Source of the DNA: Ichthyophthirius multifiliis
Taxonomy: Eukaryota > Ciliophora > Oligohymenophorea > Hymenostomatida
Assembly: GCF_000220395.1 (NCBI RefSeq)
Contig: NW_004087271.1
Span: forward strand, 4,185-47,523
Direction of reading: 5' to 3'
DNA: 43,339 bases
Under the pieces are notes generated by a model that was not told where the DNA came from, did not search any database, and was given only the letters and a program-made list of their open reading frames with translations. The position numbers were made by a program, and so were the translations under genes. Numbering within the stretch: position 1 is the stretch's first letter; each line of letters begins with the position of its first letter. Below, one piece after another: positions 1,947 to 37,100 of the stretch.

Positions 1947-3708
1947 TTATTTTAATATTCATTTATAATAAAAAAAGTTAAAATTTAATTTTGTTTTTTA
2001 TTTATATTTTTAAAAAAAAAAAATATATTTTAAAATAATTGAAAAAAAAAAATTATGTTTTTAATTATTAATATACTTCAAAAATAAAGAAATAAAAAAA
2101 ATTGCTATTATAATATTAACAATAAAATAATATTATAAATATAACATATTTATATATATATATATTTTTTATATTTATATATTAATGTATTAATATATTA
2201 TTATATATTAATTTAAATATTTTATTTTCTAAATATTTATCATTTTAAAAATTAATTTTCAAAAAAAAACAAAATATAAATTATCAATAATAAATATTAT
2301 AATTATATATATTATTTTTTTTTTTTAATATAAAATAAATGGATTATTGTGTCTAAATTTAATTTTAATTTATAAATAAATATTATTTAAATAATGGATA
2401 TTTATTGCAATTTTTACAATTTATGTATTCTAAAATAATATTAATTATTTTATATTTAAATTTTAATTTTAATAAATATTAGTGATTTACTTCATGATTT
2501 TAAATATATAATTATTTTATCATTTCCTCAAAATTAATTTTATATATATTATAATTTAAAATAAAAGTATTTATTTATTATAAAAAGAAATTATAATTCT
2601 AAATTATATTCTTTTTTTGAAAATCAATATATAAATAAAATTTAATTTTTATATATTATTATCCTAATTAATTATAATATAAAAAATAAAAATTTAATAC
2701 TAATAATTTTTTATTTAATTTGGAAAATAAGCTATTATTTTTAAATTTAAATCAAAATAATATATATAACTAATATAAATATATATTTTTGAATCTAACC
2801 TTAATTTTATTAATTTAATTAGATCATCATCAAATTTTTATTTTTAAAAAATAAATTATTTTAAGTAATAATATTTATCTTTTTTAAAGTTAGAATATAA
2901 TTTTTATATTAAAAAAATATTTTAAAGGTTATAAATATAAAATGATTATATTATTTTACTCAATTATAAATATTAAGATAAAAAAATTAACTATATATTT
3001 TATTTTGATAATAAAAAAATATATATAATAATAATATATAATTTATATATTTTATTTAATAATACAAATATAAAATTTACAAAAAATTATTTGACGAATT
3101 TAAATAAATTTATTTGTAAATATAAAAATTATTTTTACCATAAATATTAAAAATAAAAATATATAAAGATATATACATAAGAATTTAAATAGTACATATT
3201 ATGAATTTAAAAATTATAAAATAAAAATTAATTAAGCCTGTAAATAATAAAATTTAATATATATTATACACTTACAATATATAATCTTATTTTGTAATAA
3301 AAATCTATATAACATATAAGTAATATTATTTAAAATAATATTGTTTATAATTATTAAATATAAGCTATATAATTTTCTTGTAAAATATATATATAATATT
3401 TAATATATTATTAAAATTTTTTCTAATGATATTGCATATTATTTTTAAATAAAATATAAATTAGTATTATCTTTTTATATATAAAAAAATTCTAGAAATT
3501 AAAATTAAATTATTCTTTTACAATATATTATTATATACTGAATAAAATAAATATATTAATATATTATTAAAACGCAAGCTAAAATAATATTTTAATAAAT
3601 AAAATATTTTATTATTAGTTTTATTATAATTAATTTATTTTTAAATATTCTTTGGTTTAATAAATGTAATTTTTAACTAAAAAAAATAAAAAAGTATATA
3701 TAAATAGT
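1947..3708. other. intergenic, extremely AT-rich
   Basis: Between the REJ-like stop and the start of the microexon gene I see only A/T-rich sequence with short AT microsatellites. I found one AG-NNN-GTA match here (CCT at 3237), so this stretch serves as a composition-matched contrast to the dense array that follows. A TATA-like run (aaagtatatataaatag, 3692-3707) lies immediately upstream of the proposed ATG. No gene is supported. Confidence 0.6.
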
Positions 3709-3842
3709 ATGTTAAAGGTAAAAAAATTATATTAATTATAAATTTTATTGAAATTTATGATTTAAAGATTAACAAATTTTAGAATTTCATTTGTTTGCTA
3801 TTACTTATAATTTATTCATAACTATATTATGTTTAAAGCCAA
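3709..3842 (+). CDS. microexon gene, exons 1-2: start codon and signal peptide
   Basis: Exon 1 is 3709-3717 (Met-Leu-Lys), followed by GTAAAA at 3718. The 65-nt intron ends ttttag at 3782. Exon 2 is 3783-3842, 60 nt: Asn-Phe-Ile-Cys, then four Leu and two Ile, then Tyr-Ser-Gln..Gln-Ser-Gln, followed by GTATTT at 3843. Joined, they make a classical N-terminal signal peptide: one Lys, a hydrophobic core of about ten residues, then a polar region. The start was chosen because it is the only Met that splices in frame onto this hydrophobic exon. This independent logic fixes the frame of everything downstream: the next exon is a Cys codon in phase 0. Confidence 0.8.
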
Positions 3843-6800
3843 GTATTTATATATAAAATAACTTATTAAATGAATTAAAATTTTATAAATATAATTTATT
3901 ATCTATGTTTTTTAAATAAGTGTGTAAAAATTAATGCTAATTGTTTTTGTTTCTTTAATAAAATATTTTTGTATATTTTAGAAGGTAAAATATATTTTAA
4001 TTTTTTTAAAATATATATATATATATATATATACATATGTCTATTTATTAAAAAATAAAAAATAGGATGTAAAAAATTATTTTTCTGTTATATATTTTTT
4101 AACTTTTTAAAATAAAGTGTGTAATACATAAAATAATTGTTTATCATTAAATATTTACTTTTATTTAAAAACAGCAAGTATAATTTTTTTTTTTTTAATA
4201 ATAAATAAATTAAATAAAATTTATTTGATAGTATGTAAATAAAAAATAAAAAAAAATTATATGAAATAATAAAAAAAAATAAAGGGGGGTAAATAATTAA
4301 ATGAAAAAAATAAAAAAATGAATTTACAAATAAGAATGTATAAAAAATAAAAAAAAGAAAATTTAATTTATTTAATAAAAAGATTGTAAAATAAAATAAA
4401 ATAAAAATAATTTAATATAAAAAAAGTGCGTAAATATATAGTTAAAAAAAACTAATAAAATCTTTATAGTTAGTATGAATAAAAAAAATATTTAATATAA
4501 AAAACTAAACTAATTAAAAGCTTGTAAATATTAATAATAATTATTGGAAAATAATAATATAAATATAAATTTTAGTGTGTATAAATAATTTCTAAAATAA
4601 ATAAAAAATATAATTAATAAATAGGTAAAATAATATATAATTAATAAATATTAATAAATTTTATATAGAGAGTAATAATATATTAATATACATTATAATA
4701 TATAATGAAGGTTTAAAACGTAAAAATTATATTATTTTAAAAATAAAAAAACAAATAAATATTTAATTATTAAAAGTGCGTAAAAATAAAATAAAGTCAT
4801 ATATAAAAACAAATAAAAGACTGTATAATTTTAATAAAAAAATTTAAAAAATATTTTTTTTATTTTTAAGCAAGTAAATAAAGATAGAAATAAAATAAAA
4901 AAAAATATTAATAATAGATGGTAAATTAAATAAAAATATTATTTTTGTTTTATTAATTTTTATTAAAAATAGAAAGTAAAATTAAATAAAATTGCAATTT
5001 TAGTTTAAATATATAAATTTTTATTAAAAATAGTATGTAACTACTAAATAAAATAACCTTTTAGTTTATATTAATTAATTATGAATTCAACAGGATGTAT
5101 AATCTAATAAAATGAAATTTATTGATTATATTAAATTATTTATTATAAATTATAGATAGTTATATCATTTAAAATATTATTATTTGTTCAAATTTATAAT
5201 AGGATGTAATTATAAAAATAGAATTTTAGTTTTAAATTTAATTTAGGAAGTAATATTATAAATAATATAAATATATAATTAAATATTGTCTAATTATATT
5301 AAATATAGGATGTATTATTTATTATTATTAGTATTTTAATTATATTAAAATAAAGGCTGTAATAATAAATAAAAAGGCATTTTATTTAATGATTTTTATA
5401 TTTTTTATAAAAATTAGTTTGTAATATTTAAAAGAATTAAACAATATAATTTGATATTCATAATAATATTTAAAAAAATAGAAAGTAAAAATAAATAAAA
5501 TATAATTTTATAATAATTTTTTTGTATATATTATAGTTTGTAATTATATATAAAATATTAATATAAATTAATCAATATTTCGTTTTCAATAGGGAGTAAT
5601 ATTATATAAAATAAAATTAAGTTTAAGTTTATAATTTTTTAATTAACAATAGTCAGTAAAATTTTTAAAAATATTATTTTAGTTTTTATATATAAATTTT
5701 TGTTAAAAATAGATAGTATATAATAAATTATATAAAACAGAATTTTAAATTTTTAATAGATTGTAAATTTTTAATAAAATAATATTTTTATTTTAAAGTT
5801 ATATATATTTTTATTAAAAATAGTATGTAAAAATTAAAAAGAAATAGTATTTTTAGATTAAATTAAATAAAATATTAAATATAGTGGGTAATAAAAATTT
5901 TTTCTTTTTATTTTAAGTTAAAATTTATAAATTTAGTCAGTAATATTAAATAAATTAATATTTTGATTTCATATTAATATATTTTTTATTAAAAATAGTA
6001 TGTAAGATTAAATAAAATAGTATTTTAATTTAAATTAATAATAGACTGTAATATTAAATATTTTATCAATATTTTATTTTATTTTTATATAAAAAAAGTA
6101 TGTAATATAGATATTTTATTTTAAATATATTAATTTTTATAAATATTAGTGGGTAAATATAAATTAAAAATTTTATTTTTAGTTTAAATTTATTAATATT
6201 GTATAAAATAAAGTGGGTAATATTAAAAAAAGCATTTATCATTTTTTTATATTTTTTTTTATAAATATTAGGAAGTAATATTTAATAAAATAGCTTTTTT
6301 AATTTAAATTAATTAATTTTTTAAATAGAAAGTAATATATATATTATTATTATTTTTGGTTAATATTAATAATTTTTTATTAAACTAGGTTGTAATGTTT
6401 TAATTAAAATAACATTTTTATATATAAATTATTTATTTTAAAATAGGATGTATTATTATAAAATAAAAATAATTTTTATTACTTTTAATATAAATCTATA
6501 TTTTTTATTAAAAATAGATGGTAAAATTATTATTTTTAGTATAATTTTTCATATATATATTATTAATAATAGTTAGTAATATTTAATAAAATAGAAATTT
6601 TAGTTTAAATTAATCATTTTTTTATTATAATAGAACGTAATTTTAAATAAAAATAAATATTATGTTTAAATTTTACAATTTTACAATTTTTTTATTATTA
6701 AATAGATGGTAAAATTAAATAAAATAGTATTTTTAATTTAAAGTTATTTTTTTTTATTAAATAGAATGTAATATTAAATAATAAATTAGCATTTTTAGTT

Positions 6801-9800
6801 TATATTTATTAAATTATTTTATAATATAGGGAGTAATATTAAATAAAATAAAATATTTGGTTTATATTCATGAATAATTTTCTTAAATATAGACTGTAAA
6901 TAAAATAAAGTTTTTATTTTAATTTATTTTAATTTTTAAGTGTGTAAATATTAATATTTAAAGCTTTTATTTAATTATTTTGTTTAGTCAGTAAAAATAT
7001 ATTATAATAATTTTTGTATTTATAATATAATTAGTTGACACGTTAAATAATTTTTTTTATTTAGTATTATCATAAATTAATTAAAATATTACTTTTAAAA
7101 ATCTAGTAAATTTAAAATTTTATTATTAATTTAAAACATATATATATATATTTTTTTTATAGGCTGTAAAAGTAATAAAATACTTTTTTTGAAAAATATT
7201 ATATAACTATATATATATATTTTATTTCTTTTTAATATATTTACTTTTATTAAAATTTATTAACAATTTTGCAAGCTTTTTTTTACAATAGACATATTAT
7301 ATTATTACTTTTATATTAGGAAGTATTTATTAAATTTCTAGTTTATTTTATTTTTTATTTAATTAGCATGAAGTAATATTAAATAGATTTTATAGTTTTA
7401 ATTCATTTAAATAGAAAGTAATATTGATGATTTTCTTATTTTTAATTTTATATAGATAGTAATATTTTATTATTGTTTTTTTATTTATAATTTCTATAAC
7501 TATAATAGTGCGTACTATTATTTTAGTTTATTTTTAAATACAATTTTAATTTAGCAAGTAATATATTTATAATTTATATAAACAAAATTTTTTATTTAGT
7601 CAGTAATTAATTAATTATTATACTTTTTCTAATAAAATGAATAAATATATTTAGTGTGTATGAGAAATGATTTTTTATTATAATAACTTTTTTTCAATAA
7701 ATATATAAATAGATAGTAAATTTTTTAAAATATAAAAATTTATTATTTTGTTCATTTATATTATTTTTATTATTTAAAATAAATATAGACAACAGTAAAC
7801 ATATAATAATTTTATGATTTTTTAAAAATTCATATAAATAATATAATTAATTTTTTTAATTTAATTATTTTAAGATATAAGTAAAAAATTAATCTAATTA
7901 TTTATTTAATTAATTTAATTTTTCATTCAAACTATACTATTTTTGTTTAATATAATTTTGATTAGCCATCTGTTATTTTTTTATTTTATTTTTATTATTT
8001 TATATTTTTTTTTTGAATTAATTGTAGAAAAATACACTTGACGTAAAAATAAAATAAAAAAATATTTATAAATATTATTTTAATGATATTTTTGAAAAGA
8101 TATAAGTAAAATTATTAAATTAATTTATTTATTTTTTTAAAAATACAAAGCCTGTAAAATTATATAGATTTAATAAATATAAAAAATTCAATCTTTCTAA
8201 TAGTGTGTAATATTGTTTTTTTTATAAAAAAATATATTATAATATTTTATATAAATCTAGACTGTAATTATAATTTGCATTATTATTTTTTAATTTATAA
8301 TAGACTGTAAAATTAATATATTTTACTCAATTATTTTAAATAATATTAATAGGAAGTAAAATTTTATTTGAATAAAATTTTATTTATATATTTTTAAAAA
8401 ATCTAGTGTGTATCTATTTTATACCTATTTATAAAAAAAATAAAAAATAAAGCTTGTAATAATATTTTTAATAATAAAATACATATTTATAAAATAAGAA
8501 TGTAAACTATTATTATAATCTTTTTTAAAAAAATATTTTTTAAAAAGTGTGTAATAATGAAGTTAAAAATCAATTTAAATTAATTTTTAAAATTTAGTTT
8601 GTAAAATTTATATAAATAAATTTAAATAATATATTTTGTAAACGTATTTATTAAATAAACTAATTAAATTTTATTAATATAGATTGTATATATTATCACA
8701 TATTTAAAATTATCTATTTTTAATTCATTTTTAGTTAGTAATATTTTTTTTTAATGTTATATATTTTATACATTTATTTTTATAAATAGATTGTAAGATA
8801 ACAATTCTTTAAAAATTTAGTTATAATATAATTATCATTAATAGGCCGTATGACAAATATTAATTATTTTTTATTTGAATATTAATTATAAATTATTTGA
8901 TATAGTCTGTATTTTTTTTTTATTAATTTCATAATTAATATAATTCATTATAAGGGGGTATAATATTATATATAATTTTTTAACATTAATTGTTTATCTA
9001 ATAAAGACAGTATATTATAATATTAACATTATGATTTAATTATTTTATTTTTAAAAAAAAGTTTGTAAATTTTAAATTATTAAATAAATCACAATTTTTA
9101 ATCATTAAATAGATGGTAAGAAATTTATAATTAATTAATATTTAAAATAATATATTTTTAATATAAGGATGTATGAAGCAAATATATATATAATATATTT
9201 ATATTAATTTTAGGATGTAATTTTTCTAAAACATTTATTATTTTAGATTTTTATATTAATAAATAATAAAATCGATAGGATGTAAATACATTAATTTAAT
9301 AAAATAATTTAATATATCTTATTTTTAAAGGGAGTTAAAATAATTTATTTTAATTTAATTTATCTAATTAATTAGATATGGGTAAATATTCTAGAAATTT
9401 ACATGAATTATTTAAATATTTTTTTAATTTAAATAAGAAAGTAATATATATTAAGATTTTTAATATTTATTTAAACATTTATATAATATAGTGCGTAGAT
9501 ATTATTATTTATTTATAATTTTTTTAATTTTATTATTATTTGAATTACAGAATGTAATATTTTTAACTATTCTATTATTTAATTATGATAAACATAGAGC
9601 GTATAATTTTTTATTATTTTTATTAATTAAATAAAATTTAGAAAGTAATATTTTCTATATAATTAAAGCATTTAATTTTTAAATAAAGAAAGTAGAATTA
9701 TTTTAATTAATTACTAGACAAAAATATTTTTAAATAGATAGTAATATTTAAATTAGATTTATTTTATTCAAAATTTAAATAGGATGTTAATTAAATAGTA

Positions 9801-11687
9801 TTTTTTATTAATTTGAATTATATATTTTAAGGATATGGATGTTTTCAATAATATTTATTTATCAAAAATAAATAATTTATTAATTTAAAATCAAAAAGCC
9901 AGTAATTTATATTTTTATTATTAAATTATTTATTTTAATTTTAATTAGTTTGTAAAATTATTCAGATTCAATTATATATTATTAACAAATTCTAAATAGT
10001 CAGTAAAAATTTTTATATATTTAATAATTTTAAATTAATATATGTCCTTTATAATAAAGAGAAATGTAAGTTCTTCCTAGAATTCATTAAAAAATAAATA
10101 AAAATAGTTAGTAATTGTTAAATTCTAATATTTTTTAATCATTTTAAATTTATTAAAAAAATTAGTGCGTAAATCATTTAATATAATTATTTAAAATTAA
10201 TAATAATATTATTTTAGTAATGCGTACATCTTTATTTATATTATTATTTTTTTAATGAGTTATAATAAAAAGAAAGTAATATTTTTATTGTATTGAATTT
10301 AAATTATATATTTTTTTTTACCCTTAACCAAAATAGAATGTTTATTTATAATTTTTTTTTTTTCATGAATGATTTGTTTAATAATAACCAGAGTTAGATT
10401 TCTTAATTTGTATTAATATAATTATTTAATTTAAATTAAATTAATATAATAATTTTGATTATTTATATTTCTGTTAATTTTAAAGGTAATAATATTAAAT
10501 ATCTTTTTTTATTAAAAATTATTTTTTTTATAATTATAATTATTATATTATTTGAAGAGTGATGTAGTAAAGTATTTATTATGTATTTAATCTTAAAAAC
10601 TTAATATAGGCAGTAATTATCTTTATATACTTTCTTTTTAAAGAATATTTTATAATAAAAAACATTTTATAATTATTTTTATTAAATTAAGAATGTAAAA
10701 TCTTAAATAAAATATTATAATATTATAATAATCTTAAATAGAAAGTTAATATTTAATTAAGATATGTATATATTTAGTTTAATATTATAGATTCCAAATG
10801 TAAAATTTAAATTATTACCTTCGATTATATTTTAATTAAATATTTTTAGCTTTAATTAGTAAATTTTATTATTTAAATTTAAATGTTTTCTCATATCAAA
10901 TTAGATTGTTAAAATTAATAATTTTATATATTGATTTTAAATTATAAATTCTATTCAGTGTGTAATTTTATTATCTTAAGTTTTTAATAATTATTATGAT
11001 TAAAATAAGGATGTGAGATATATTTTTTAAATATATATCATCAATAACATATATAAAATACTATAGAAAGTATAATTTTTTTATATTATTATATTTATTA
11101 TTTATTAAATAAAAAGCATGTATTTTAATACTATTTTTAAATAAAATGTTTGAATTAATCAAAAAATAGAAAGTTATGCTTTATTTTTAGTGTTATATTA
11201 ATTTAAATAAAGGACGTAATATTTTAATTACTTTTTAATATTTTTATTTATTTTTAATTCAAAATAGTATGTAATTTGTTTTGAAAATAAATAAATTATA
11301 AAGCATATATACAAATATAATTAGTGCGTAAAATTTATTTTATAATTAAAATAATTTGAGAAAATTCTTAAATAGGAATAAGTAATTTAAAATTTAAAAT
11401 AAATTATAAAATAAAATATAAAAAGAAATATATTTTTAAAAAATAAAATAAATATTTAAAATAGTTTATTTTAATTTTTATATTATCTAAATTAAAATTT
11501 TATATTATATTATTAGGAATTTAAGGTATTTTAGTGTATATTAATTAAAATATCTCTTAACAAAGGTTAAAATGAATATAAAAATAAAAGAATTTTAATA
11601 TTATTATAAAAAATATATTAGATTGAAAATAAATGGTATAATTTAATTTAATTTATATAAAATAATATAAGAAAAAAAAGAAGTTGA
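3709..11687 (+). CDS. hyper-fragmented gene: secreted Cys-rich protein built from about 113 single-codon exons
   Basis: A gene of about 8 kb encoding only about 235 residues in about 132 exons. Exon 1 (ATG TTA AAG) and exon 2 (20 codons) give a signal peptide. Then about 113 exons of exactly 3 nt and 17 of 6-18 nt follow, each preceded by TAG/AAG/CAG and followed by GTAA, GTAT or less often GTTA. The last exon is 171 nt and ends TGA. All but one exon are multiples of three, and all introns are phase 0. No single codon is TGA. Introns are mostly 40-85 nt. The product after signal removal is cysteine-rich with C-x-x-C spacings (exons 3/6, 12/15, 63/66, 78/81), like secreted or surface Cys-rich proteins of ciliates. 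I do not recognise the family. Exons are listed block by block in the entries that follow. Two irregular points (4285, 7035) are unresolved. The splicing itself is inferred; no transcript was seen. Confidence 0.8.
3921..4578 (+). CDS. microexon gene, exons 3-15 (single codons)
   Basis: Exon start and codon: 3921 TGT (Cys), 3982 AAG (Lys), 4066 GAT (Asp), 4118 TGT (Cys), 4175 CAA (Gln), 4232 TAT (Tyr), 4285 GGGG (Gly, four nt, see findings), 4335 AAT (Asn), 4383 ATT (Ile), 4427 TGC (Cys), 4470 TTA (Leu), 4521 CTT (Leu), 4576 TGT (Cys). The result is two C-x-x-C pairs (CKDC and CLLC) immediately after the signal peptide. Introns in this block are A-rich and 40-81 nt long. Confidence 0.8.
4669..5311 (+). 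CDS. microexon gene, exons 16-28
   Basis: 4669 AGA (Arg), 4711-4719 three codons GTT TAA AAC (Val-Gln-Asn), 4777 TGC (Cys), 4820 ACT (Thr), 4871 CAA (Gln), 4918 ATG (Met), 4973 AAA (Lys), 5034 TAT (Tyr), 5094 GAT (Asp), 5156 ATA (Ile, donor GTTATA), 5203 GAT (Asp), 5247 GAA (Glu), 5309 GAT (Asp). The in-frame TAA of the 9-nt exon is Gln under the ciliate code. The long gap 4579-4668 holds a zero-length AG|GT site at 4624/4625. Confidence 0.78.
4920..6900 (+). repeat. family of mutually similar about 57-bp introns in the microexon array
   Basis: Many introns in this part share ordered blocks: a start close to GTAATATTAAATAAAATA, a middle tttttagttt-like block, and an end close to tttttattaaaaatag. 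Examples begin at 4976, 5037, 5940, 6002, 6709, 6768 and 6833. Similarity by eye is well beyond shared AT richness, though low complexity makes this hard to judge without alignment. It suggests that a single intron-like unit spread through the gene. Confidence 0.5.
5356..6331 (+). CDS. microexon gene, exons 29-46 (18 consecutive single codons)
   Basis: 5356 GCT (Ala), 5418 TTT (Phe), 5482 AAA (Lys), 5537 TTT (Phe), 5593 GGA (Gly), 5653 TCA (Ser), 5713 ATA (Ile), 5760 ATT (Ile), 5824 TAT (Tyr), 5885 TGG (Trp), 5937 TCA (Ser), 5999 TAT (Tyr), 6045 ACT (Thr), 6099 TAT (Tyr), 6150 TGG (Trp), 6214 TGG (Trp), 6272 GAA (Glu), 6329 AAA (Lys). This is an aromatic-rich part with three Trp codons. TGG sits one base from the TGA stop, and no TGA occurs. 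It is the most regular block, with introns of 44-61 nt that often share similar inner sequence. Confidence 0.85.
6389..6990 (+). CDS. microexon gene, exons 47-57
   Basis: 6389 GTT (Val), 6447 GAT (Asp), 6518 ATG (Met), 6573 TTA (Leu), 6634 AAC (Asn), 6706 ATG (Met), 6765 AAT (Asn), 6830 GGA (Gly), 6893 ACT (Thr), 6941 TGT (Cys), 6988 TCA (Ser). The peptide contains Asn-Gly-Thr-Cys. The next regular exon is 172 nt away. In between, a 7-nt AG-TTGACAC-GTTAAA (7035-7041) breaks the rule and is not included. Confidence 0.8.
7163..8105 (+). CDS. microexon gene, exons 58-72 (mixed 3, 6 and 15 nt)
   Basis: 7163 GCT (Ala), 7320 GAA (Glu), 7367-7372 CAT GAA (His-Glu), 7415 AAA (Lys), 7456 ATA (Ile), 7509 TGC (Cys), 7555 CAA (Gln), 7600 TCA (Ser), 7655 TGT (Cys), 7713 ATA (Ile), 7789-7794 ACA ACA (Thr-Thr), 7875-7880 ATA TAA (Ile-Gln), 7966-7971 CCA TCT (Pro-Ser, donor GTTATT), 8028-8042 five codons (Lys-Asn-Thr-Leu-Asp), 8100-8105 ATA TAA (Ile-Gln). 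CQSC is another C-x-x-C. Two exons contain TAA, read as Gln. Gaps 6991-7162 and 7166-7319 are longer than usual and could hide missed exons. Confidence 0.72.
8151..9009 (+). CDS. microexon gene, exons 73-89 (17 single codons)
   Basis: 8151 CCT (Pro), 8204 TGT (Cys), 8261 ACT (Thr), 8304 ACT (Thr), 8353 GAA (Glu), 8407 TGT (Cys), 8453 CTT (Leu), 8499 AAT (Asn), 8548 TGT (Cys), 8598 TTT (Phe), 8683 ATT (Ile), 8735 TTA (Leu), 8790 ATT (Ile), 8845 GCC (Ala), 8906 TCT (Ser), 8955 GGG (Gly), 9007 ACA (Thr). The peptide PCTTECLNC continues the cysteine pattern. At 8955 the run of five G is exactly AG+GGG+GT, unlike the six-G run at 4284-4289. Confidence 0.82.
9062..10002 (+). CDS. microexon gene, exons 90-108
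   Basis: 9062 TTT (Phe), 9113 ATG (Met), 9168 GAT, 9214 GAT, 9279 GAT (three Asp), 9331 GGA (Gly, donor GTTAAA), 9376-9381 ATA TGG (Ile-Trp), 9438 AAA (Lys), 9492 TGC (Cys), 9551 AAT (Asn), 9598 AGC (Ser), 9642 AAA (Lys), 9689 AAA (Lys, donor GTAGAA), 9738 ATA (Ile), 9783 GAT (Asp, donor GTTAAT), 9832-9840 GAT ATG GAT (Asp-Met-Asp, weak donor GTTTTC), 9899 CCA (Pro), 9949 TTT (Phe), 10000 TCA (Ser). Confidence 0.78.
10060..11381 (+). CDS. microexon gene, exons 109-131 (mixed 3-18 nt)
   Basis: 10060-10065 AGA AAT, 10108 TTA, 10166 TGC, 10218-10223 TAA TGC (Gln-Cys), 10273 AAA, 10337 AAT (donor GTTTAT), 10392-10409 six codons Ser-Gln-Ile-Ser-Gln-Phe, 10558-10563 AGT GAT (or 10558-10566 with donor GTAAAG), 10610 GCA, 10692 AAT, 10742 AAA, 10791-10799 ATT CCA AAT, 10850-10858 CTT TAA TTA, 10905 ATT, 10959 TGT, 11010 GAT (donor GTGAGA), 11067 AAA, 11117 CAT, 11170 AAA, 11213 GAC, 11268 TAT, 11325 TGC, 11376-11381 GAA TAA. 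Splice sites are a little looser than upstream and more exons carry several codons. A zero-length AG|GT lies at 10485/10486 in the long gap 10410-10557. Confidence 0.7.
11517..11687 (+). CDS. microexon gene, terminal exon with TGA stop
   Basis: After tattag at 11511-11516 the frame begins Glu-Phe-Lys-Val-Phe-Gln-Cys and runs 56 codons to TGA at 11685-11687. It uses TAA/TAG as Gln and ends Arg-Lys-Lys-Arg-Ser. There is no strong C-terminal hydrophobic anchor, so the product looks secreted rather than membrane- or GPI-anchored. This exon is of ordinary size, so fragmentation stops abruptly here. An apparent intron at 11526-11534 would be only 9 nt, and the frame is open through it, so it is read as exon. 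Confidence 0.7.
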
Positions 11688-12779: not shown

Positions 12780-13967
12780 ATGAAATTAAAAAAAAGTAGC
12801 ATTTTTTTAAAGGAGAATTTGAAAAAAAAAGCAAATTTTTATGCATGTTTTGCGGAGGAAAAAATTGTCCAAAAGAAAATTATTTAAAAAATCCAAATAT
12901 AAATGCAATTGAAGGATTACACTCAGATTGGATAAATAATGACATTTTAGCAATGTAAAGACCTTCATCTAGGATAATAAAAGACTTTAATTTAATTTAG
13001 TAATTTAAAAATAATAAAATTAAAGCAGTTTTTAATCTCTAGTTACCAGGTGAGGTAAATTTATATTATTTATTATAAAAATAAAAAGTAGTTTATAATT
13101 TTTTTTTATTTTTAAAAAAATAAAGCATCCTTATTGTGGTGATAATTTAAATATAAATAGTGGATTTACATATTCAATAGAAGAATTTACTGATAGTTAA
13201 AAAAAAAAATTAAATATAATGTTAATTCTAAAAAAACAAAAAAATAAAAAAAGATAATATATATTTCTTTAATTATGGATGGACTGATATGACTGTTACG
13301 AATCCAACATATATGATGAAAATAATGTCTTCTATAGATTTTATTATATCCTAAGGATATAAAGTAAATATTAATATTTTATTAATTAATTAAAATAAAA
13401 ATATTTATTAAGATTTCAGTACATTGTCATGCTGGTACTGGAAGAACTGGATTAGTAATTGCTTCTTGGTTAATATTTAATGAAGGGATGAGTTATGAAT
13501 AAGCAAGAAACCTTTTTAAATAAAAAAGAAAAGGAGGTTTAGGAAAAAATATATAGAAAATATTTTTAAAAGAATTTTAAGAATGTAAAATATATATTAA
13601 ATTTATATTTTAAATAATATAATTACTTTATATATAGTTTTAACATAATCTAGAATTACTTTTGGACTTAAATAATTAATTGATTTTGAACATTTTATTT
13701 AAAAACAAGAGTTAATTTTATTAACAAATATAAAAAATCAAGCAAAATATTAACCTTTAATATTCCATTAATCATTAGATAGAATAAAATAATTAATATA
13801 ATATAATTATATTTCAGCAGAAGATGTATACATTAAAAAACAAATTTATTATAATTATATTTATAAAATAGGCTTGTTTAAGTTTTTATGATATGTAACA
13901 TAAATAATAGTAATGGGGAACTGAATAGGAAAAATAAATAAATGAGTTAAAAGTAAAAACTATATAT

Positions 13968-15599: not shown

Positions 15600-16910
15600 T
15601 CACAAAATTGGAATAGAATCATTCCAATCCAAAACCATATTTTTGCCCCATTTAGTTTTCATTACCTGTTCAATTAGAGGAACTAGATCTTCATCTTATT
15701 TATCATCCTAATCTTTTTTTTCAAACAATCTTTTATTATTTTCTGTTTATTCCTTAAAGCTGACTGTCATAATAATTCTATCATCTTTATTATATAACTC
15801 GTCATAAAGTATTATATCAAACTTCCCATTATTTTTAATTTCACAAACCCTATAATCAAGTGCAAATATCACTGAATAATGATATTCTTTACATATCACC
15901 CAAATTGGAAAAACTGGTTTTTTAAGATATTCCCCTACCTCTATATATTACAGATGCTCGAAAATCGTCAAAAACCCAAACTAACTTTTTTAATCTATTC
16001 CCCTAAGTCTAAGTTCATCATCGAGTACTTTTTCACCATCAAAGCAATTTGATCTGGCCTTTCCTGTCAAAAACAAATTCACTTATTCCTATTAACAATG
16101 CCCATGATGTCCTATAAGAGCGTTTTCTTAAGAATCCATTTCATCTTTTATATTCTAAACTCCTTTTGTCAAAACAACACTATAAAGGAAAGTCGTAATC
16201 CCACTATTATGCTATCCAATAAACTCTTCTTTGAATTAATGCAGTCCTTCATAAGCTTACTCAATTGTATTAGCTTTAAATTAGCAAATTCCACAATTTT
16301 CAACGGGAACAGCATTTTAATATGTAGTCTATGTAATGACTGCAATCTTAATATTATTATCACTTTCTTTACAATTAAATAAAATTTCCGCTAAAGCAGC
16401 AACTAAACAATTCTCCCTTAATTATTTATTTTTATAAAATTCAATATTATTAACTTAATTATTTACAGGAGGTGCAACAAACATTAAATATTTCAAAAAA
16501 AGAGCCTAAACGCATGCTATAATTCCACAAGGACCTCCTTCTTTTTAAACCAAACCATAAAATGTATTTTCATTATCGTTTAAAATAAAACCTTAAGACC
16601 ATGAATAAGGTAAAAACTTATTCTATTGCTAGTTAAAGAGAAGCTTTTTGATTTCCTATATATCGTTTCCTTATATTGGAGTAGTAATTCTTTTTGATAA
16701 ATTTTGGAGAGTAGTATTTTTATTTAAGTTTAGTTATTGAGGACATTTATAGTTTTATCCTATTTTACCTTTTTCAAATAAATTTATTTTTATATATTTA
16801 TTCAAATTATTCTCTTGAAATTCTTCTTATTCTTCTTATAGAAAATTAGGGCATTCCATGTTTATTAATGTTGGTTTTACATTAAAATTCAATTATTATT
16901 CATTATTATA

Positions 16911-16967
<57 letters not shown>

Positions 16968-17897
16968 TTCCTATTTCTTTTATTCTTCCATTTATTTGTT
17001 TTTGTTAAAAAAATTAAATGTTTTTATACTTTCTCCATTATTATTTTCTTTCTAAAATAATTTTTCTTCTTAATTATTTACTATTCGAGATTCAATTACA
17101 TTATTATTATTATTAAATAAAGAATCATTAACAAAACCACTTATTTTTTATTATTATTATCCTTATTCTCTTATTTTTACAAAAAAATCTGAATTTTAAT
17201 TATTCTATTGCACCTCTGAAATTTAATAACTTTTTGGAATTTCATAGTCATATTTAAGTTCTGTAAATGTATTTTCTATTTTATATTAATTGTTTACATT
17301 TTCTTGCAATTTAGAAAATTTTTTCATGTTTGTCCTTCTCGAAGTTAAATTAAAATCATCATTATCTTTTACTTATTCTTATATTTGCTCTTTTATTTCA
17401 TGTTTATAATCATTTATTATATTACCTTTAGATTACTTTTTTTTTAAATTAATTTTTTTTTAAACAATTAACATATATATATACTTTTTTTTATATACGT
17501 TTTTATTTTAATTTTCTATATTTATATTAACAAAATTATCTTATTTATTTTAGTTTTGATTTTCTGATATCTTGGCAGTAATCAAACCTAATTAAGTTTT
17601 TTAACTATTTTATATTATATTATTTGATCTCTATTTAAATTTAGAAAATAAATATTCTGATAAAATTTCAATTAATGATATTTATGGTGTTGGGTTAATT
17701 TTATTATTCTTTACTAACCTTTCCATTGATAATAATCTTATTAAATCTAATTTTGTCATTTTTACTCTTGGTCTTTTATCTTCTAATTCTAACATATTTA
17801 ATGTTTCTTTAAAATCATATTTTAGTAAAAATTCTCTTATTAAACTTCTTGCTAAATCTTCGGGTTTTACTATATTTTCTAACTATTTAAAATCCAT
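15600..17897 (-). CDS. MINDY-4 (FAM188B)-like Lys48-type deubiquitinase
   Basis: The protein begins MDFKQLENIVKPEDLARSLI and continues as a LisH-like helix pair (REFLLKYDFKETLNMLELE), as in the N-terminus of MINDY-4. A long Asn/Gln-rich middle follows. The catalytic domain has GLVQKEGGPCGIIACVQA (about 16510-16560), where the Cys of GGPCG is the nucleophile. It also has VNLFLTGKARSNCFDG and EYHYSVIF (the His is the expected general base), and it ends MKTKWGKNMVLDWNDSIPIL before TGA at 15600-15602. The order and motifs match the MINDY-3/4 (DUF4205) family, which trims polyubiquitin chains. The N-terminal LisH-like part favours MINDY-4. One or more small introns lie in the middle (near 17460-17560). 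It is divergently transcribed from the kinase gene. Confidence 0.88.
16902..16967 (-). repeat. (ATT)n encoding a poly-Asn tract in the deubiquitinase
   Basis: Trinucleotide run of about 20 units. On the minus strand in the gene's frame it reads AAT, giving a poly-Asn stretch between the N-terminal LisH-like part and the catalytic domain. It is typical of AT-rich ciliate and Plasmodium-like proteomes. Confidence 0.75.
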
Positions 17898-18369: not shown

Positions 18370-20648
<2,279 letters not shown>

Positions 20649-35116: not shown

Positions 35117-37100
35117 ATGGAAACGTATAAAAACATTATTTTTAATAGAAGTTTACAAAAATTTACAAGTAAATATTTAATAATATTTTTTTTTAAAAAA
35201 AATATAGATAGATATATTAATGATGATTTAAATAAAATAAAATTGTAAACAAATGAAAATATTAAAAACTAAAAAGATTATCAAAAATAAAAGGATAAAA
35301 AAAATATCAAATTAAAAGTAGATGTGATACAAAAAGAATAGTAATTAAAAATTTTGCCGACATTAATAAAATATAATGCTGATTATAAAATTATAAATAA
35401 CTAAAAGCCATTAAAAATCTAATAAAATAAAGTATAAATATAAATTATTACTTAAAATAAAAATAACAACTACAACAATAAAAATTTAAAAAGGAATTTA
35501 GAATAACATCGTAATCAAAATATATAGTATCATAAAATAAAAAAGAAAATATTCAATAATAATTACCAGCATATATTCATAAAGGAAAAACAAATTATAC
35601 AGTATATATATATATTTAATATAATATTTTGATTAATCATTTATTTATAAATAAAAAATATAATTAATAATTAGTATATTGTAGAACAAGGAAATAATTC
35701 AGAATTAATTAAAAAAGTACTATAATGTAGAAATTGGATGAGCATATAAAATCCGAATTTTCCTCAAAATTATAGTTTTAAATGGAAACCAACAAATAGT
35801 GGAATAAATAACGGAAATATTTAAAAATCAAATAAAAAAATATAATGTTTAAATCATATAATAAACCATTCTTAGTTATCTTAAAAAGCCAAACTATATA
35901 ATAATATAAAATTATATTGTTATGTAAATATAAGCTTATTAAGAAATATTAAAAATAAAATAATTTATAAAGGAAAAAAGCGATTATGTTAATAATTATT
36001 TACCTCATTCATTTATATTTAATTTAGATTCTGAAGATTTTAGACATTCTCTTGACGAGTTTTTAGATTTATTTATCACAATAGCATAATCTACAGGACT
36101 TAAAAACATTTGGATGTTAAACCCTACTGATACAAATAGGGGTAATGGTATAAGAATATTTAATGACTTGTGTTAATTTTAATAAATAATGAAAGAATAT
36201 GGAAAGAAATAAATAGTAGAAAATGCTATAAATAAAATAACAAAATAATTAGATTATACATTAAGCGAAAGTAATAATTATTAAGAAAAAAATTAATAAA
36301 AGAATTAAAAAAAAATAAATAAAAATTAAATAATAATTCAAAAATATATTGAAAATCCTCTTTTAGTAAATAATAGGAAGTTTGATATAAGAGTATGGGT
36401 TTTAATAAATTAAGATTTTAATTATTATATGTTTAAGTAAATAATAAAATATATATATATATATATATTAGTTAATTTTTTAAAAAAAATAAAAGAGAAG
36501 GATATGTAAGACTTTCATCTGAAATATATAATATAAATAAATAAAATTTAAATAATATTTATATTCATTTAACTAATAATGCTATTTAAAAAGTTTCCTA
36601 AAATTATGGAAAATATGAAAATGGAAATATTATTTCATATAAATAATTAGAACAAGCATTATAAGAAAAATACTAAAATATTAAATTTTAAAATATTTTG
36701 GAATAAATATAAAACCTTATTATCATTTCAATTGAAAGTTGTAAAAAATAATTAAATAAATAAGAAAATAGGTTTAATTTCGAACTTTTTGGTTATGATT
36801 TTATGATTGATGTTGATGGTCATGTGTATTTAATTGAAATTAATTCAAATCCATGTTTAGAAGAATCAAACGATCTTTTATCTTAACTAATTCCAAGAAT
36901 GATTGGTATTTTTTATTTTTTTAATTAATATTTATGTATAAAAATAGATGATATGTTTAGATTAACTATTGATAAAATTTTTAATTAAAATTATTCATTA
37001 TATGAATTTAGTGGATAAAAATCTAAATTAAATCAATAATAAACTCCTTAATTAGATTTTTATGTTGATGGACATAAAATATATGAAAATTTATGGTAAA
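35117..37100 (+). CDS. tubulin tyrosine ligase-like (TTLL) protein
   Basis: It starts METYKNIIFNRSLQKFTS, followed by Lys/Asn-rich N-terminal exons. The ligase domain follows in order: NYSFKWKPTNSGINNGN, LPHSFIFNLDSEDFRHSLDE, NIWMLNPTDTNRGNGIRIF, RKFDIRVWVLI, YIHLTNNAIQKVSQNYGKYE, and FELFGYDFMIDVDGHVYLIE continuing into INSNPCL. These are the ATP-grasp motifs of the TTLL family, including the acidic D-x-D and E-x-N metal/ATP site. TTLL enzymes add Tyr, Glu or Gly to tubulin tails; the subtype is not decided here. The last recognised coding part is VDGHKIYENLW near 37095, followed by a likely donor GTAAAT, so a small final exon downstream is expected. Several introns contain (TA)n. Confidence 0.85.

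Follow-up and report, generated by a model that had tools for sequence, protein, structure and literature searches.

Genes for putative secreted cysteine-rich proteins that appear to be cut between single codons almost throughout in the ciliate Ichthyophthirius multifiliis

Genes Built from Very Small Exons

The available portion of the report on the MEGs of Schistosoma describes gene families with signal peptides and short symmetric exons of up to 36 bp (PMC8293314). In aphids, the available part of the source gives the bicycle genes phase 2 exons, on average about 17 per gene, and gives megacycle more than 100 microexons and a protein of about 2000 residues (PMC9168663). Conserved exons no longer than 15 nt are reported from plants and animals (e.g., PMC8831610).

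A locus of the ciliate Ichthyophthirius multifiliis is compared here with these systems. It lies in the window, i.e., the whole stretch of DNA that was analysed (43,339 nt; NW_004087271.1, positions 4,185 to 47,523, forward strand), and it belongs to a gene family whose putatively secreted, cysteine-rich products appear, from sequence, to be encoded by reading frames cut between single codons almost throughout. Like the Schistosoma MEGs, as far as that portion of the report describes them, the ciliate genes are organized in families, lack homologues in other genera, carry putative signal peptides, and have short symmetric exons whose omission would keep the frame; the exons are mainly multiples of 3 (1150/1205), and 11 of 13 copies have a signal peptide as judged by hydropathy only. 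In contrast to MEG exons of up to 36 bp, those of the ciliate family are mostly of 3 nt, with more than 100 in succession. With no match at E 1 among 5.8 billion proteins, common descent with the schistosome MEGs is not indicated, and the likeness is one of build only. The family resembles the aphid bicycle and megacycle genes, as described in the available part, in its many tiny internal exons, which share one phase almost throughout, and in coding for putative secreted effectors. The bicycle exons are phase 2, whereas the modelled ciliate exons are phase 0, with the junction of the 7- and 8-nt exons as the sole exception. Given a protein of the reported size, the exons of megacycle would average many codons, against one codon in the ciliate family. 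The preliminary description knew of no gene with over one hundred exons of one codon each; no such run was found in the literature either, whereas more than 100 microexons per se are known from the aphid gene (PMC9168663, same part). The literature search, with subscription journals and preprints largely outside it, returned no report of genes made of single-codon exons. Isolated microexons of plants and animals are single exons within otherwise ordinary genes; the ciliate exons share their tiny size but stand in long runs.

Predicted Exon Structure of the Window Copy

On the + strand between 3709 and 11687, AG-NNN-GTA occurs 104 times, against a mean of 4.1 and a maximum of 10 in 200 first-order Markov shuffles of the region, which rules out a chance origin of the array and confirms that the AG-NNN-GT recurrence noted earlier is real. 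The motif occurs once on the − strand of this region and, in the rest of the window, 15 times on the + strand and 5 times on the − strand. When inner gaps of 0 to 21 nt were scanned (200 shuffles of 3709–11687), only gap 3 stood above every shuffle; gap 6 (nine occurrences) equalled the shuffled maximum, and gaps 9 and 4 (six each) and the remaining gaps lay inside the shuffled range.

A dynamic-programming chain through the window copy comprised 129 units spanning 3708–11381, with the donors GTAA (91), GTAT (23), GTTA (8), GTAG (3), GTAC (2), and GTTT (2) and the acceptors TAG (88), AAG (36), and CAG (5). As the GT and AG ends were preset by the scan, the test lies in the motif excess and the wider signal; both were found, GTAA or GTAT making up 114 of the 129 donors. 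The unit at 3708 was rejected as false, since it overlaps the start codon, and the 75-nt unit at 3768 and the 78-nt unit at 10486 were corrected to 3783–3842 and 10558–10563, respectively. Up to 11381, the final model comprises 130 exons, of which 110 measure 3 nt; a further 10 have 6 nt and 6 have 9 nt, and lengths of 7, 15, 18, and 60 nt occur once each. These numbers are close to the roughly 113 triplets counted earlier alongside 16 longer units. The spliced length in the model is 544 nt, out of 7673 nt. Under code 6, stop-to-stop ORFs gave 97 frames of at least 250 residues; in DNA so rich in AT, most of these are spurious, and the gene model makes no use of them. The predicted features of the window copy are as follows.

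3709..3717, + strand: exon 1, ATG and two codons (MLK); a 9-nt exon followed by a hydrophobic exon 2 in 11/13 copies
3783..3842, + strand: exon 2, remainder of the putative signal peptide, NFICLLLLIIYSQLYYVQSQ; best 10-residue hydropathy 3.27
3921..4873, + strand: N-terminal block of single-codon exons, C-K-D-C-Q-Y-N-I-C-L-L-C-R-VQN-C-T-Q; best-conserved family part, mean pairwise identity 0.69
4918..6832, + strand: variable zone, single-codon exons and introns with a common 58-nt consensus; residue identity 0.20
6893..6990, + strand: single-codon exons T-C-S
7035..7041, + strand: 7-nt exon that opens the asymmetric pair; 7 nt in 13/14 copies examined
7163..7171, + strand: closing exon of the asymmetric pair, 9 nt in the window copy; 8 nt in 13/14 copies
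7320..11381, + strand: C-terminal block, E-HE-K-I-C-Q-S-C ... I-C-K-H-K-D-Y-C-EQ; single-codon exons predominate, with some of 6, 9, 15, and 18 nt
11382..11687, + strand: 3′ end including TGA, exon limits tentative; seven C-terminal ends compared under two readings

Regarding the terminal exon, neither the read-through nor the spliced reading was decisive across the seven ends; at the second C281 end, the length differs in a way that argues against a read-through exon.

A Gene Family across the Genome

Beyond the preliminary description, the locus is a member of a gene family, with one asymmetric exon pair and a middle zone resembling an array of codon-plus-intron units. The fetched parts of the genome contain 22 further chains of the same build and at least 16 family N-termini, and no control chain scoring 40 or more was found on 236 kb of reversed and complemented sequence. 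With a flat prior over 1–12 nt, 1003 of the 1205 family exons are 3 nt long and 1150 are multiples of 3; the scan excluded any exon of such a length that carried TGA in frame, a bias that acts against this result. The spliced family proteins align, with 31–46% identity to the window copy. Three shorter microexon chains besides the family (on C539, C618, and C764) have no clear match to it (best E 0.018 in a set of 14 sequences), and the process may thus extend past one family. A pattern for the Cys-Arg junction gave 3 matches only; the window intron there (90 nt) is longer than that pattern allows.

The spliced signal peptide proposed earlier recurs with the same build in 10 other copies. Including the window copy, 11/13 copies have a first exon of 9 nt, or of 12 nt in a single case, and a second of 48–60 nt; the test used 14 anchors, one of them a false second anchor on C807, and a hydropathy criterion only, by which the same search yielded an equally hydrophobic candidate for 23/1000 random stretches.

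The 7+8-nt exon pair is present in 12/14 copies, where five residues can be read from it, among them Cys in 10/12. The background for a 7-nt exon is 0.06 per 200 nt, and C305 is without it. At 7163, the preliminary description had read GCT as a single triplet; judged by the relatives, this is instead the start of the second half of the pair, and with 9 nt in place of 8 the modelled frame of the window copy is off by one nucleotide there. Some copies may therefore be defective, through the frame slip in the window copy and the exon loss in C305. One scan placed a 69-nt exon ahead of the [DE]-H exon in several copies; this exon was dropped, since two of 13 aligned copies differ by 8-nt gaps and the 7+8-nt pair fits 12/14 copies.

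No homologue was found at E 1 or better among 5.8 billion proteins. Pfam profiles gave nothing above cut-off among the matches listed (best E 0.01, each family via one member), and neither search thus supplied an intact relative to confirm the joined protein. The best E in a PDB profile search was 0.78, and tRNA and Rfam scans of the window were empty. A search of the organism's own genome for an uninterrupted relative also returned nothing; it was run without a positive control, and its empty answer is uninformative.

Codon Constraint and Codon Choice

Comparison of the copies shows that the triplets are ciliate-code codons under amino-acid constraint and in one frame, with intron places common to the copies. 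In family chains built without a stop filter, TGA occurs once in 1527 triplets, whereas positional base frequencies predict 47, and TAA (25) and TAG (9) are present. Fifteen columns selected for at least 70% Cys contain 131/137 TGY codons, with T (71) and C (60) at the third position, and one Gln column of 11 codons has CAA and TAA five times each, so that TAA is interchangeable with CAA. Relative to random pairing, copy differences are 0.62, 0.50, and 0.72 at codon positions 1, 2, and 3. Over all copy pairs, which are not independent, junctions are present in both copies in 3724 cases, in neither in 412, and in one only in 305. The GC content is 0.25 in exons and 0.096 in introns. The pooled pN/pS is 0.96; because synonymous sites look saturated, the ratio shows no constraint, and the case rests on the column patterns. 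Over copy pairs, the similarity is 0.60 to 0.80 between homologous introns and 0.54 to 0.65 between unmatched introns (the matched ones are the less similar in one pair), and as homologous introns are also alike, kinship accounts for part of the exon similarity. Thus, the triplets are not random among relatives, a condition that the preliminary description had named as refuting its reading: their order is the same, amino acids are conserved, and third positions vary, which supports the earlier reading of probable exons of a coding gene.

Several codons that create rival splice sites are avoided in the microexons. GGT makes up 0/53 Gly codons there versus 16/52 in ordinary exons; NAG and NAA number 9 and 151 versus 35 and 196, and Val and Ile/Leu number 7 and 157 versus 47 and 168. 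The avoidance is absent for Gln TAG/CAG (p 0.78) and Ser AGY (p 1.0), and GTA within Val gives p 0.09. The Val deficit may alternatively come from the kind of protein.

Introns and the Variable Zone

The family introns have a median length of 50 and a mean of 52.9 nt (n = 1036; 30–110 nt only), which fits the length class reported for Ichthyophthirius spliceosomal introns, given as class means of 48.3 and 69.5 in the available part of that report (PMC5014332). Five introns of a neighbouring kinase gene, read by eye, have end signals of the same kind. On sequence evidence, we consider that the locus is a protein-coding family gene split by ordinary short GT-AG introns of about 40–60 nt after nearly each codon, with a probability of about 0.93.

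In the window copy, 28/34 zone introns exceed the shuffled 99th percentile for a 58-nt consensus, versus 1/87 elsewhere in the gene. As the consensus was built from 27 seeds of this zone, the other copies serve as the test: 189/285 zone introns pass in all copies versus 24/716 elsewhere, and 161/251 versus 23/629 with the seed gene left out. The 58-nt sequence has at least 18 genome matches, 18/18 on family contigs, and none in the control. The zone contains 21 to 39 codons in nine spanning copies and 14 to 39 in the twelve that reach it, counts that missed exons may blur. These data suggest a fast-evolving middle zone growing by codon-plus-intron units, and the variable part would have grown and shrunk via tandem duplication of units of about 61 bp.

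Introners are introns with one common sequence, and an invasion of an ordinary gene by such mobile introns is an alternative origin of the zone introns, one that we consider rather unlikely and that is compatible with the preferred reading of the gene. The sequence shared among many introns of one zone would fit, as would the finding that adjacent introns are barely more alike (0.344) than distant ones (0.291 to 0.328), tandem growth favouring a clearer gradient. However, the sequence is not dispersed over unrelated genes, its matches (a lower bound) lying solely on family contigs, and the zone varies in codon number; introns outside the zone have no shared origin under either reading.

Alternative Explanations

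Loss of expression in a formerly spliced, now decaying pseudogene family would account for the frame slip of the window copy, the missing exon of C305, and the pooled pN/pS of 0.96. This is improbable, however, given the near absence of TGA and the retention of the cysteines and the 8-nt exon in diverged copies. As the host is a ciliate and the segments between triplets are short and AT-rich, these segments might instead be germline-type internal eliminated sequences cut from DNA, the contig being unprocessed. Paramecium IESs have TA at both ends; here, 41/129 3′ ends are AAG or CAG, so that TA-bounded excision misfits, the GT..AG ends are those of the kinase introns, and the avoidance of rival splice sites is not predicted by DNA elimination, which makes it very improbable. 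A non-coding AT-rich satellite that resembles splice sites by chance is hardly conceivable: one zone is indeed repetitive, but the motif excess over shuffles, exon lengths in multiples of 3, the TGA deficit, the conserved codons with free third positions, and the splice-aware codon choice all stand against it.

Proposed Splicing and Implications

In the preferred reading of a spliced coding gene, the spliceosome would take 120–130 introns out of one transcript, splice sites being paired across the intron (intron definition). Since a 3-nt exon is too small for two adjacent spliceosomes, the removal of neighbouring introns would be sequential, the exon lengthening by one codon at every step, and a bias towards short introns would prevent use of the next acceptor. 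Skipping of a single-codon exon would cost one residue and keep the frame. In recursive splicing, an acceptor is directly followed by a donor and removal is stepwise; in contrast, each step here would leave one codon. Cysteine-rich and either secreted or located at the surface, the product would combine a conserved cysteine frame with a variable middle part.

As a tentative generalization, to which we give slightly less than even odds, exon and codon would coincide: more than 100 stepwise splicings would read out a secreted protein residue by residue, and the codon-plus-intron unit would act as a minisatellite, so that DNA changes could add or remove single variable-zone residues, and RNA splicing could skip them, with the frame kept, in a process that may reach beyond one family. 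If this is true, one codon becomes the minimum exon size for entire genes, and a spliceosome fidelity above about 99.5% per intron would be needed (0.99^128 = 0.28; 0.995 gives 0.53). Splice sites three bases apart, the order in which they are served, and length as the sole guard against skipping would then become testable. The structure also suggests that annotation could miss a whole family of secreted proteins in the genome of a fish parasite, and it suggests a route to single-residue protein change through intron-borne repeats.

A probable gene of single-codon exons

The recurrence of an AG-triplet-GT motif on one strand, proposed in the preliminary description for the putative gene at 3709-11687 (+), is borne out by counting: AG-N3-GTA occurs 104 times, a 25-fold excess over the shuffled mean of 4.1, and a single time on the opposite strand. 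Chains of units were built by dynamic programming. The resulting model of this copy comprises 130 exons up to position 11381, 110 of which are one codon long, and these 7.7 kb carry 544 nt of coding sequence (terminal exon left out). When all lengths of 1-12 nt were given equal prior across chains of the family to which this copy belongs, 1003 exons of 3 nt, 98 of 6 nt, 44 of 9 nt and 5 of 12 nt were obtained, with 55 of the other lengths together, which speaks for reading the triplets as codons.

Genetic code and reading of the triplets as codons

GC content ranges from 7 to 25% per kilobase of the window, where the longest frame with the standard stops has at most 123 residues. Reading TAA and TAG as Gln lets conserved proteins emerge, such as the protein of 15843-17039 (-). 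It shares 41-48% of its residues with the MINDY-4-type proteins of Paramecium, 45% with the Tetrahymena one and 50% with its nearest unnamed relative. The ordinary genes near the window copy are as follows.

Neighbouring ordinary genes (the last three are presumed from motifs)
15843-17039, - strand: adjoining ciliate gene, MINDY-4-type deubiquitinase
13419-13550, + strand: presumably dual-specificity phosphatase
18740-20470, + strand: presumably calcium-dependent protein kinase
36000-36900, + strand: presumably tubulin-tyrosine-ligase-like protein

Low GC content, Gln at TAA and TAG and ciliate-like proteins fit with Ichthyophthirius multifiliis, for which the genome report gives 15.9% GC, introns of 12.3% GC and scaffolds totalling 49.0 Mb (PMC3341644).

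In the family chains (the window copy and the related chains of the same build), TGA, the sole stop of this code, occurs once in 1527 triplets against 47 predicted from base frequencies by position with no bar on stops, and TAA and TAG occur 25 and 9 times. The joined proteins from 14 sequences can be aligned along their length. TGT (71) and TGC (60) make up 131 of 137 codons in the columns picked because cysteine prevails there, and one column of 11 sequences holds CAA five times and TAA five times, an exchange that supports both the ciliate code and the reading of triplets as codons. Difference relative to random pairing is lowest at codon position 2 (0.50) and highest at position 3 (0.72). 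The pooled pN/pS of 0.96 was counted against the codon reading; it is ascribed to synonymous sites that look saturated.

Copies in the genome

The window covers positions 4185-47523 of contig C177 in a genome of 45.0 Mb and 937 contigs. In this genome, a pattern of two neighbouring units gave 47 matches against 3 in the backward control, and a second such pattern 529 against 53, with about 100 places listed. Within about 236 kb of examined sequence, window included, 26 chains score at least 60, totalling 1816 exons (1577 of 3 nt), although some longer units in spacers are false (e.g. in contig C281) and in some cases one copy is split over several chains. The reversed and complemented sequences of the same 236 kb yield no chain scoring 40 or more. 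Family members account for 23 of the 26 chains, the window copy counted. As 430 matches of the 529-match pattern (our own count) lie in the examined loci, most of its excess belongs to them; beyond these, contig C434 and parts of C550 and C878 probably hold further copies. Contigs C281 (stretches L018/L019), C348 (L023/L024) and C550 (L028/L029/L033) each carry at least two copies, and many contigs of the family are short, with a copy cut off by the contig end. In the 11.3-kb contig C6 (L010/L011), positions 29-127 and 10894-10992 match identically; because the contig start recurs at its end, this copy may belong to a tandem array, a circular contig being the alternative.

The other three chains, listed below, have no clear relation to the family.

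Microexon chains outside the family
L036 (contig C539), 883-1540, + strand: 13 microexon units, of which 11 are single codons
L032 (contig C618), 754-2251, - strand: 27 units, of which 18 are single codons; contains cysteines
L027 (contig C764), contig positions 53018-54390, - strand: 26 units, of which 21 are single codons

The L036 chain reads G-C-P-SWCGP-YSC-N-G-R-C-S-Q-C-C, and TGA directly follows its last acceptor.

Conserved exon places and the variable zone

Over 4441 adjacent aligned residue pairs, counted across non-independent pairs of copies, an intron is present in both copies in 3724, in neither in 412 and in one only in 305; judged from these alignments, the exon places are old. 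The signal peptide is split alike in 11 of 13 copies, by a 9-nt exon (12 nt in one) followed by a 48-60-nt exon, and an equally hydrophobic candidate arises in 23 of 1000 random stretches. The other two copies gave no candidate, one of them (C807) with little upstream sequence searched. In 12 of the 14 copies with an H-x exon (C310, C348 and C577 lack this exon and are left out), it is preceded by exons of 7 and 8 nt. Joined, these read [ILM]-[KTN]-[GR]-[CS]-[YQN], with Cys in 10 of 12; the 8-nt pattern was derived from the alignment, so that these counts are descriptive. The background of the 7-nt pattern is 0.06 per 200 nt. The window copy departs from the pair with 7 and 9 nt, and C305 is without the 7-nt exon. 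The single-codon rule thus has one conserved exception, in which the frame is kept by the pair only.

In alignment columns 42-93 (4918-6832 in the window copy), introns share a 58-nt sequence: 189 of 285 exceed the shuffled 99th percentile versus 24 of 716 elsewhere, and 161 of 251 versus 23 of 629 after removal of the gene that supplied the seed. Allowing up to 3 mismatches, its core has at least 18 matches in the whole genome, all on family contigs, and none in the control. Protein identity is 0.20 within this zone, 0.69 before and 0.375 after it, and codon number varies from 21 to 39 among the nine copies spanning it; counting all twelve that extend into the zone, the range is 14 to 39. The zone is read as tandem growth by units of codon plus intron. 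Neighbouring introns are slightly more similar (0.344) than distant ones (0.291-0.328), so that the order of duplication is not visible.

Proposed splicing, putative product and relation to known genes

Regarding splice-site use, comparison with 963 codons from ordinary exons of the window (ten comparisons, uncorrected) revealed avoidance in single-codon exons of GGT (p 3e-6), GAG (0.008), AAG (0.025), AGG (0.02) and Val overall (5e-7), with p 0.09 for GTA within Val. The Val deficit may be partly due to the kind of protein, and Gln TAG/CAG and Ser AGY are not avoided relative to the same codons. The avoidance of several codons that would create an additional donor or acceptor suggests that the sites flanking the single codons are used. 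The introns belong to the ordinary length class, and inspection by eye of five introns in the neighbouring kinase gene shows the same ends, one of them starting with GTGA. Since 3 nt between an acceptor and the next donor are too few for two spliceosomes to assemble next to each other, neighbouring introns would be taken out sequentially. Any single-codon exon could be skipped with the frame intact. The cysteines and the signal peptide suggest a putative product that is secreted or at the surface.

The same logic is described for schistosome micro-exon genes and aphid bicycle genes, although their exons contain many more bases; one aphid gene uses more than 100 microexons for about 2000 residues. 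As this logic is known with larger exons, and the literature searched (covering few subscription journals and preprints) contained no report of genes of single-codon exons, the family would be a new, extreme form of the microexon-gene build.
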